36,176 bases of DNA from positions 1-36,176 of the IMG/VR virus record IMGVR_UViG_3300042362_000028, one strand, 5' to 3'. The translations under genes were made by a program, and so were the position numbers. Origin of the DNA: a virus. Position 1 is the stretch's first letter; every line of letters begins with the position of its first letter. Shown here piece by piece: positions 1,028-3,831 of the stretch. Below the pieces are notes generated by a model. The model saw only the letters and a list, made by a program, of their open reading frames with translations, searched no databases and had not been told where the DNA came from.

Positions 1028-1918
1028 TTATTGATTACTCAATATGCACCAGGCTGTTGCTGCACACAATGGGACTTGCCCGTTTCCAATGGCTTTAAGT
1101 CGGTCCACCCTAGCGGCCACCCCATTAGCCACTCTACCCACGTTGGGTTCAATTGCCCAGAAGTCGGATGTTCCGTGTTTGGATACTTTGCCGCAAACGA
1201 TTGAAGTGTTCTCCCCGACTGTGATTTGGCTTTTGGGTCGTAATCCTTTGTTGGCCCCCTCGGACTTGCATCTGGAGTTGGCCAATTTTTCATTCTTTTG
1301 GGAGTCAGACTGCCGCCAATCATTGCTTCGGCTTCCTCTATGGTCGTTGTTCCACACTCCACTAGTTGTCTCATTTGCAAAATCATTCCCTCCGACCTTG
1401 CTTGCGATGCCGTTGGAGTAGGCCACTTGTTTTCCGACAATCCAAATTCTGTCCCTCTGATGGTTTGCTCCAACGTCCGCTGCTCCCAGCACTCCCCATC
1501 TCGCATCAAACCCCATTGAGGCCAAGTCTCCAAGAACTCGTCCAAGTCCCCTAGAAGTGAGCATTGGTGAGTTCTCCACAAAGACGAATTTGGGTCGTAC
1601 TTCACGAATGACCCTCGCCATTTCTCCCCACATTCCGCTTCGCTCCCCATCAATTCCTGCCCCTTTTCCTGCTGCGCTGATGTCTTGGCATGGAAAGCCG
1701 CCAGATACAACGTCAACAATTCCTGCCCACGGTCTGCCATCAAAGGTTTGTATGTCATCCCAAATCGGGAAAGGCGGGAGAAGTCCATCATTTTGTCGGG
1801 CGCACAAAACGCTTGCTGGGTAGGGTTCCCACTCAACTGCGCAGACTGTTCTCCATCCAAGCAAATGTCCACCAAGAATTCCTCCACCAGCGCCCGCGAA
1901 TAAAGCCAGCTCATTCAT
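1028..1918 (-). CDS. DNA (cytosine-5) methyltransferase
   Basis: A C5-cytosine methyltransferase of 296 residues. Motif I FAGAGGG at 7-13 binds S-adenosylmethionine; the catalytic Cys is C77 in GGFPCQ; the ENS motif lies at 115-117; QRDRIW (motif VIII) at 154-159; IGNGQVP (motif IX-X) is near the C-terminus. The target recognition region between about 165 and 260 is short and Ser/Asn-rich. It probably protects phage DNA against host restriction or alters its methylation; the target site cannot be read from sequence. Upstream on the mRNA, a GGAG lies about 10 bases before ATG 1918, and a GAGG lies only 2 bases before it. That GAGG sits at 6 bases from a second ATG at 1914, which opens another full-length frame. 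The gene sits between a small coiled-coil ORF and the primase-helicase. Confidence 0.93.
   Translation of the reverse strand: MNELALFAGAGGGILGGHLLGWRTVCAVEWEPYPASVLCARQNDGLLPPFPIWDDIQTFDGRPWAGIVDVVSGGFPCQDISAAGKGAGIDGERSGMWGEMARVIREVRPKFVFVENSPMLTSRGLGRVLGDLASMGFDARWGVLGAADVGANHQRDRIWIVGKQVAYSNGIASKVGGNDFANETTSGVWNNDHRGSRSNDWRQSDSQKNEKLANSRCKSEGANKGLRPKSQITVGENTSIVCGKVSKHGTSDFWAIEPNVGRVANGVAARVDRLKAIGNGQVPLCAATAWCILSNQ
1039..1914 (-). CDS. Full-length overprinted frame inside the cytosine methyltransferase
   Basis: A 291-residue frame, shifted by one base from the methyltransferase, starts at ATG 1914 and stops 11 bases before the methyltransferase stop. It has the better-spaced Shine-Dalgarno (GAGG, 6 bases). 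The product is Trp- and Pro-rich, with two WPTP-x-AS segments in its second half and a C-terminal WVEWLMGWPLGW segment. I recall proteins with the same start (MSWLYSRALVEE) and the same ending deposited from many phages and prophages, but could not search. Since that start is the shifted reading of methyltransferase motif I, those homologs must themselves overlap methyltransferase genes. It may be a true second product or a frame kept open by the other gene's codon constraints. Function unknown. Confidence 0.5.
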   Translation of the reverse strand: MSWLYSRALVEEFLVDICLDGEQSAQLSGNPTQQAFCAPDKMMDFSRLSRFGMTYKPLMADRGQELLTLYLAAFHAKTSAQQEKGQELMGSEAECGEKWRGSFVKYDPNSSLWRTHQCSLLGDLDEFLETWPQWGLMRDGECWEQRTLEQTIRGTEFGLSENKWPTPTASQARSEGMILQMRQLVECGTTTIEEAEAMIGGSLTPKRMKNWPTPDASPRGPTKDYDPKAKSQSGRTLQSFAAKYPNTEHPTSGQLNPTWVEWLMGWPLGWTDLKPLETGKSHCVQQQPGAY

Positions 1919-2018
1919 TTCCTCTTTTCTCCAATTTTTTAATTCTTTGCTCCAATTCGTACACCCGCCGGGCCAACATGAGCACCAGCAGTTGCCAGAA
2001 TTCTTCTTTTGATTCCAT
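1911..2018 (-). CDS. Small coiled-coil protein, 35 residues
   Basis: ATG at 2018 opens a 35-residue frame whose stop (TGA, 1911-1913) abuts the second methyltransferase start, an ATGAATGA arrangement. The C-terminal half (residues 18-34) is a charged amphipathic helix with heptad Leu/Ile and many Lys/Glu. No good ribosome binding site precedes it: the U-run and CCCTC of the upstream terminator lie directly before the ATG. It could be a real microprotein translated at low level, or serve to couple translation into the methyltransferase. Nothing in it suggests a specific function. Confidence 0.4.
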   Translation of the reverse strand: MESKEEFWQLLVLMLARRVYELEQRIKKLEKRGNE

Positions 2019-2715: not shown

Positions 2716-3831
2716 TTATTGGGCAAACTCAACGGCACGGCCTAGAGTCAAACCCGATGATTCTTTTGTGGTGAGGTCATCGACCATGGACTTCTTGTCC
2801 TTGCCCAAGAGCTTCTCGGCCACCGCAGGCGTCACCATCTCTGTCAAGACCAGTTTGGACTTGTCGAGGCCAGCGTCAGTGAGCGCTTGCAAGGCGGCAT
2901 CTTCATTGGTCCATTTGCGCGTTGCACGCTTTGGGACCATCTGCCAGCCATGGATTGACTCACCATTCCTGATTCGTTGCACGGCGTGATCTCGCACGGC
3001 ATCGATGAATTTCTCCACCACTGGCGCACGCTCCAAGAGGTCCGCAATCTGCTCGACTGAGAGCGAGAGCATGACGGCCTGGATCTGGTCCTTGTCCAGG
3101 GTTCTGAGGTCTGGCTTGGCCGCGAGCACTTCAAACCCCGTGCGTTGGGCAGGGCAAACGATCTTGGCAGGGCAGTACTGACAGGCAGAGTCACTGGGGT
3201 TTGGTTGGGCGTCATCCACAGTGGCCTGGACAATGGCCGGGCGCAAGGTGTTTTGATACCAGTCAAAGAGTTCTGAGTACGTCATCGAGTGACTGCGCAC
3301 GTCACCATGATGCGGCTGGACAATGCGCAACTCAATCTGCCCAGGCGGTGGGATACCGTTCTTTGCGGCTGACCTGATGGCGCCCAAGGCATAGATCTTG
3401 AGCTGGGGACTGTCAGCATCCACCCAGCCTTTGCCTGTCTTCAAATCGCTCACGATGAGCTTGCCAGACCCGACACCGACAACGTCAGCAGTCCCACCCA
3501 GCTTGACCTCATCAGTGTCCACGATGGTGACGTACTGCTCGACTCTGACGTGCCCCAGCTCGTCATGCACCCGCTTGATCTCATCGAGGTGGAGCCGGGC
3601 ATATTCGGCATTTGTCTGCGTCATGGTGATGCCTTCCACCTCCTTGCCGACATAGTCTGCCGGACTGGACTTGGCCTTAAAGCACAACTCAGCCAGGGCA
3701 TGGATGGCGGTCCCGATCTGCGCAGCTTCCCCAGCAGGTTCTTGCTCGATGCCTTGGGACAGGCGCACGCTGGCCGGGCAGGCGATCCAGCGCGATGCTG
3801 CACTTGGTCTGAGGATTATTTTTTGTTCCAT
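2716..3831 (-). CDS. Cas4-like PD-(D/E)XK nuclease, DUF2800 family
   Basis: 371 residues. Seen: GTAIHALAEL at 40-49, GGTADVVGV with D116, then IVSDLKTGKG with D129 and K131, the metal-binding and catalytic pattern of the PD-(D/E)XK fold. C18 plus C217, C220 and C226 match the four-Cys iron-sulfur arrangement of Cas4/AddB-type exonucleases. The C-terminal 130 residues are not assigned. DUF2800 proteins are phage exonuclease-like proteins, expected to resect DNA ends for recombination or replication. The start at 3831 follows an AGAGA and overlaps the preceding small gene by 16 bases. It sits between that gene and the SSB-like gene, as expected for a recombination module. Confidence 0.85.
   Translation of the reverse strand: MEQKIILRPSAASRWIACPASVRLSQGIEQEPAGEAAQIGTAIHALAELCFKAKSSPADYVGKEVEGITMTQTNAEYARLHLDEIKRVHDELGHVRVEQYVTIVDTDEVKLGGTADVVGVGSGKLIVSDLKTGKGWVDADSPQLKIYALGAIRSAAKNGIPPPGQIELRIVQPHHGDVRSHSMTYSELFDWYQNTLRPAIVQATVDDAQPNPSDSACQYCPAKIVCPAQRTGFEVLAAKPDLRTLDKDQIQAVMLSLSVEQIADLLERAPVVEKFIDAVRDHAVQRIRNGESIHGWQMVPKRATRKWTNEDAALQALTDAGLDKSKLVLTEMVTPAVAEKLLGKDKKSMVDDLTTKESSGLTLGRAVEFAQ

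Follow-up and report, generated by a model that had tools for sequence, protein, structure and literature searches.

Does a viral cytosine methyltransferase gene encode a second protein over almost its whole length in another frame and, if so, what would that protein contribute? The question is raised by the window analysed here, a stretch of 36,176 nt from virus record IMGVR_UViG_3300042362_000028 (positions 1 to 36,176). Double-stranded DNA phages seldom carry long overlaps in which two conserved proteins are read from the same strand, and gene-calling programs retain one frame and discard the other. No published account of such phage overlaps was found among the open-access papers searched.

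Two overlapping frames at the methyltransferase locus

As the initial annotation had stated, two long open frames lie one base out of register on the same strand: alpha (frame 1), a C5-cytosine methyltransferase, and beta (frame 2), with starts offset by 4 nt and stops by 11 nt (Table 1). Its further observations, that frame 2 has the better-spaced ribosome-binding site and carries repeated WPTP segments, were borne out as well, the latter with two copies at beta residues 164-167 and 211-214.

Table 1. Features of the alpha/beta locus in the window, with the evidence for each
Feature	Position	Strand	Evidence
Alpha, frame 1, 296 aa, C5-cytosine methyltransferase	1918..1028	minus	PF00145, E 1.4e-32; phrog_363, 1e-66
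Beta, frame 2 (+1), 291 aa, overprinted	1914..1039	minus	phrog_1008, E 1.7e-25; open across relatives; second-frame omega ~0.2
GAGG ribosome-binding site	1921..1924	minus	Sequence; 6 nt to beta ATG, 2 nt to alpha ATG
Alpha motif I, ALFAGAGGGILGG	1868..1906	minus	Alignment A2
Alpha motif IV, GGFPCQ, catalytic Cys77	1685..1702	minus	Invariant in alignment A2
Alpha motif VI, ENSP	1565..1576	minus	Alignment A2
Alpha motif VIII, HQRDRIWIVG	1433..1462	minus	Alignment A2
Alpha spacer, codons 166-255, opposite beta recognition region	1154..1423	minus	Omega; pLDDT <50 over 176-254
Alpha motif X, RVDRLKAIGNGQVP, and C-terminal helix	1040..1111	minus	Conservation in A2/A4; helix 283-295, pLDDT ~90
Beta middle domain, SLWRTHQCSLLGDLDEFLETWPQWGLMRDGECWE, over alpha motifs VI-VIII	1480..1617	minus	Conservation in A1/A3; internal control in nested relatives
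Beta WPTP segment 1, start of putative recognition region	1414..1425	minus	Alignment A1
Beta WPTP segment 2	1273..1284	minus	Alignment A1
Beta motif IX-like segment, LNPTWVEWLMGWPLGWTD, end of frame 2	1099..1152	minus	hhalign to LSARFVEWMMGLPDGLVT, prob 90, E 1.5e-6

Frame 2 stays open across relatives

The openness of frame 2 was compared with a null in which synonymous codons were permuted, leaving the frame-1 protein and codon set unchanged and counting frame 2's own terminator as one stop per sequence. This shuffle gives about 7 expected frame-2 stops for the window gene and about 6 per relative, and because the chance of an open frame 2 is about 1e-4 per gene, its openness is far from chance. 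The initial annotation had argued the same from an expectation of about 14 stops, which is a uniform-codon figure and about twice what the shuffle gives.

A viral contig collection yielded at least 600 matching stretches with a beta query and about as many with an alpha query, and 80 loci were kept from each. Where retrieval was by the frame-1 protein only, frame 2 is open over the matched length in every locus (80/80). Across 98 divergent relatives, no frame-2 stop falls along codons 2-163, where 3.0 are expected per sequence, and frame 2 is likewise free of stops in the spacer that separates alpha motifs VIII and X. The beta start is an ATG in 111 of 112 unique loci, whereas the alpha start position is an ATG in only half of the same set; among 182 unique loci with a beta beginning MSW, the alpha start 4 nt upstream is ATG in 91, GTG in 42 and TTG in 19, and lies elsewhere in the rest.

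Phage and plasmid searches added 13 distant loci (36-59% GC) that retain an open frame 2, from Acinetobacter, Salmonella, Pseudomonas, Microcystis, Synechococcus, Vibrio, Klebsiella, Lacticaseibacillus, Leptospira, Bacteroides, Stenotrophomonas and fecal samples. When alpha alone served as the query, starting from Bacteroides and Lacticaseibacillus loci, the full alpha and beta pair was present in 74 of 102 loci, spanning 32-68% GC. Phages and prophages from many bacterial phyla maintain the overlap.

Both frames are under purifying selection

In this register, the third position of a frame-1 codon is the second position of a frame-2 codon. For omega, differences were classed by their effect in both frames, and sites with more than one difference in six bases were left out. 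The intervals given are bootstraps over columns and, because the loci within each set are related, are to be read as uncorrected for kinship, as are those of the control genes. At 60-70% protein identity, four-fold sites are 71-75% identical, compared with 41-44% in flanking genes on the same contigs. The second-frame omega is 0.19-0.27 (NN/NS) and 0.20-0.22 (SN/SS), against 1.07 [0.93-1.25] and 0.83 [0.73-0.98] for the second frame of same-contig flanking genes, and the first-frame omega of alpha under the same site classing is 0.05-0.08. Both frames are coding and under purifying selection. The initial annotation's claim of a long-conserved overprinting pair stands: in the comparison of codon alignments and dN/dS it had suggested, frame 2 is constrained beyond the level that the methyltransferase imposes, and the frequent stops in homologs that it had named as contrary evidence were not seen, frame 2 being unbroken.

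The two frames swap roles in the stretch from motif VIII to motif X. Over spacer codons 166-255, the alpha omega of 1.17 [0.75-1.69] and 1.00 is neutral and the beta omega of 0.18 [0.11-0.28] and 0.15 is constrained. The N-terminal half of beta (codons 2-165) has an omega of 0.40 [0.23-0.76] and 0.20 [0.14-0.28], and its first 60 codons one of 0.34 [0.13-0.81] and 0.18 [0.09-0.36]; in some short regions, such as codons 1-20, intervals are wide because synonymous sites are few.

Relatives in which beta starts inside alpha provide an internal control. In a Bacteroides-type nested set, the second frame is unconstrained before the beta start (omega 1.9 and 3.0; four-fold identity 0.31) and constrained within beta (omega 0.19 and 0.65; four-fold identity 0.58), and in the spacer the beta omega is 0.11 and 0.03 compared with 1.07 for alpha. 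A Lacticaseibacillus-type nested set has diverged less and carries less information: for beta over motifs IV-VIII only NN/NS is clearly below 1 (0.17 [0.03-0.47]), and by NN/SN the spacer of alpha is non-neutral (0.11 [0.00-0.48]).

These values bear on the idea that frame 2 is untranslated and owes its openness to codon usage or to drag from alpha conservation. An ordinary methyltransferase (L341), read in the shifted frame, does give a 21-bit match to the beta middle domain, and a synonymous shuffle of the spacer predicts only about 0.8 stop. The similarity of the middle domain is partly a shadow of alpha conservation, but the omega values and the internal control exceed that shadow. The second-frame omega is about 0.2 where controls give about 1, the spacer is neutral in alpha yet constrained in frame 2, and constraint in nested relatives sets in where beta does; moreover, openness persists at 32-47% GC, and in two relatives (L220 and L245) beta and motif X form one ORF past the end of alpha. 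An untranslated frame 2 is, in our judgement, extremely improbable. Because L341 obtains 21 bits from the frame shadow, middle-domain matches of about 20-40 bits alone were not scored as beta.

Alpha and beta probably carry different parts of one enzyme

Alignment and structural model place motifs I-VIII and X on alpha, including the catalytic motifs I, IV (PCQ), VI (ENV/ENS) and VIII of PF00145. Alpha aligns to M.HhaI/M.HaeIII over residues 1-163 only, and the fold of its model corresponds to the catalytic domain of these enzymes (E 5.6e-15). In the AlphaFold model, pLDDT is 90-98 for most of residues 1-170, falls below 50 at residues 176-254 and 258-276, where disorder is predicted, and returns to about 90 in the motif X helix at 283-295. 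Alpha thus resembles the single-chain C5-methyltransferases (PF00145; M.HhaI, M.HaeIII) in its catalytic domain but, unlike them, has neither a folded recognition domain nor motif IX, so that TRD and motif IX do not share the chain of the catalytic motifs.

Pfam and NCBIfam searches with frame 2 gave no match, a PDB profile search with beta returned chance hits only and no solved homolog, and the first 160 residues have no known homolog in the Pfam and PDB profile searches. The family that beta does match, phrog_1008, is labelled merely 'DNA methyltransferase', PHROGs recording neither a subunit role nor an overlap. The middle domain has the consensus SxWKTxQCSLLGDLxEF..WPxWGxMRxGE (A1/A3), and a conserved C-terminal segment reads LNPxWVEWLMGWPxGWT. 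By hhalign, the latter is paired with the in-frame LSARFVEWMMGLPDGLVT of single-chain actinophage enzymes, and the equivalent position of relative L434 holds RRLTPLECERLQGFPDGWTD, the canonical form of motif IX. This 20-residue match suggests that the beta segment LNPTWVEWLMGWPLGWTD is the counterpart of motif IX in single-chain phage methyltransferases. AlphaFold modelled beta alone with low confidence (pLDDT 59, pTM 0.28), which may be expected of a chain that needs a partner and proves nothing.

Might beta instead be a separate overprinted protein, such as a regulator or an anti-host factor, that merely shares the DNA of the methyltransferase? Its first 160 residues, having no known homolog, would fit, as would relatives (L427-L440, L175, L178) in which the middle-domain frame is apart from the recognition and motif IX part. 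Such a protein would, however, hardly be expected to end in a motif IX-like segment while alpha has neither such a segment nor a folded recognition domain, or to carry motifs IX and X in M.AquI-like relatives, and we regard this reading as improbable. The initial annotation had guessed at either a partner of the methyltransferase or an anti-host factor. The former was the better guess, the IX-like segment and a constrained recognition region being present in frame 2 and absent from frame 1; the latter found no support, and a separate factor of this kind is not needed. What had been missed is that the two frames most likely share out one enzyme, to which the published M.EcoHK31I is comparable.

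The same parts are arranged differently in relatives

As to ARRANGEMENTS in relatives, alpha and beta are each a single ORF, in different frames, in 304 of 320 loci, a rate that is biased because many of these loci were retrieved with a beta query. Elsewhere the same parts are arranged otherwise. In L175, L177 and L178, motifs I-VIII share a single frame with the recognition region and the IX-like segment. In L220 and L245, alpha stops past motif VIII and one beta frame comprises the middle domain, the WPTP segments and motifs IX and X, and the division in L176 and L343 is similar (alpha I-VIII; beta IX and X). A short beta is nested within alpha in L169, L171 and L364. Three ORFs are present in L427-L440: alpha with motifs I-VIII, a separate overlapping ORF resembling the middle domain, and a third ORF, which in L433 and L434 (both read out) carries canonical motifs IX and X. 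No beta accompanies L441, L442 and L444, which are ordinary single-chain enzymes. Five loci with an internal stop in alpha and an intact beta (L012, L025, L046, L192 and L216) are unexplained by a two-subunit model. The simplest putative history, as read from these sequences, would be that a single-chain enzyme underwent a frameshift past motif VIII, that beta then gained an upstream start and that motif X was regained by the alpha frame.

The single-chain relatives L175, L177 and L178 would also be compatible with programmed frameshifting, by which alpha motifs I-VIII are fused to the recognition region of beta and beta has no start of its own. Two shifts would be required, however, because motif X lies in frame 1 again; in addition, the beta ATG is retained in the 111 of 112 loci mentioned above, and frame 2 is already constrained before any such site (omega 0.40 and 0.20), which makes this mechanism very unlikely.

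GenBank annotation varies: beta alone is annotated in Geodirt (L176), SOVA965 (L173) and phPA-G (L164), alpha alone in some other records and both in one (Leyra, L340).

Relation to known two-polypeptide methyltransferases

M.EcoHK31I is a two-polypeptide C5-methyltransferase with the specificity YGGCCR. Lee et al. 1995 reportedly described its 176-aa beta as nested within alpha in another frame. Like this enzyme, the present locus has two ORFs that overlap in different frames; its large subunit bears motifs I-VIII and X and its small one motif IX, here as a 20-residue profile match. It differs in that the window beta (291 aa) spans nearly all of alpha (296 aa), in that the present family is very widespread, and in that the recognition region is constrained in beta and alpha is neutral and disordered there, whereas the published, predicted TRD is on the large subunit. 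In the published division, M.EcoHK31I carries motifs I-VIII and X on the large polypeptide and motif IX on the small one, with the predicted TRD placed in the large subunit (PMC3404938), and in M.AquI motifs I-VIII are on one polypeptide and IX-X on the other (PMC3404938). Because the published TRD assignment is a prediction, a large-subunit TRD was not taken as defining the M.EcoHK31I type. The window locus probably works like M.EcoHK31I, a likening drawn from the published motif division and not a claim of membership. The M.AquI division, with a catalytic half and a recognition/IX half on two polypeptides, is found in L220, L245, L176 and L343; in the window, by contrast, motif X belongs to alpha instead of accompanying IX on the small subunit, and overlap of the two genes is nearly complete.

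A proposed model and its implications

We consider it highly probable that alpha, with motifs I-VIII and X, and beta, with the recognition region and motif IX, are subunits of one heterodimeric methyltransferase. Two interleaved frames of the same DNA would then specify one split m5C DNA methyltransferase. Alpha would supply the catalytic AdoMet domain (I-VIII) and motif X, its stretch from VIII to X serving only as an unstructured spacer. Beta would be translated from its own ATG, 4 nt downstream of the alpha start, and would contribute the DNA-recognition region and motif IX; its N-terminal half, which overprints the catalytic domain, probably docks on alpha. We infer that a single mRNA with adjacent starts would yield both chains, which would assemble into a heterodimer and methylate phage DNA, the simplest role of such methylation being escape from host restriction.

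On balance, we also favour a more specific description, that of a frame-interleaved enzyme taking alternate segments from two nearly coextensive ORFs (I-VIII from frame 1, recognition region and IX from frame 2, X from frame 1), with beta residues 1-160 as a domain born by overprinting, kept across many bacterial phyla and phages. If true, few same-strand overlaps in double-stranded DNA phages would be as long or as deeply conserved.

Should the two-subunit model be right, many annotated phage cytosine methyltransferases would be half enzymes, a single ORF, when cloned, would yield an inactive protein, and the unannotated frame would hold the recognition region. The model predicts that the assignment of a TRD to the large subunit of M.EcoHK31I deserves re-examination. 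The alpha/beta family offers hundreds of natural replicates for studies of overlap evolution.

Further observations on the locus and its relatives

In the window, the methyltransferase adjoins a DUF2800 / PD-(D/E)XK nuclease gene (2716-3831), in what appears to be a phage replication block. Among 5,426 complete E. coli genomes, only 4 contain a relative of the locus in Salmonella phage S9-5 (L163). The catalytic half of L068 and L164 is 83-90% identical to that of the window and the downstream region is different, which is suggestive of a swapped recognition module. In L245 (a Desulfobacterales MAG), an HNH-like intron ORF (1119-1857) splits alpha. Two Spirochaetaceae loci, L256 (571-2611) and L250 (0-339), have an apparent intein within alpha motif IV (GGFPC/QDIS), and in L256 the beta frame is open through it.
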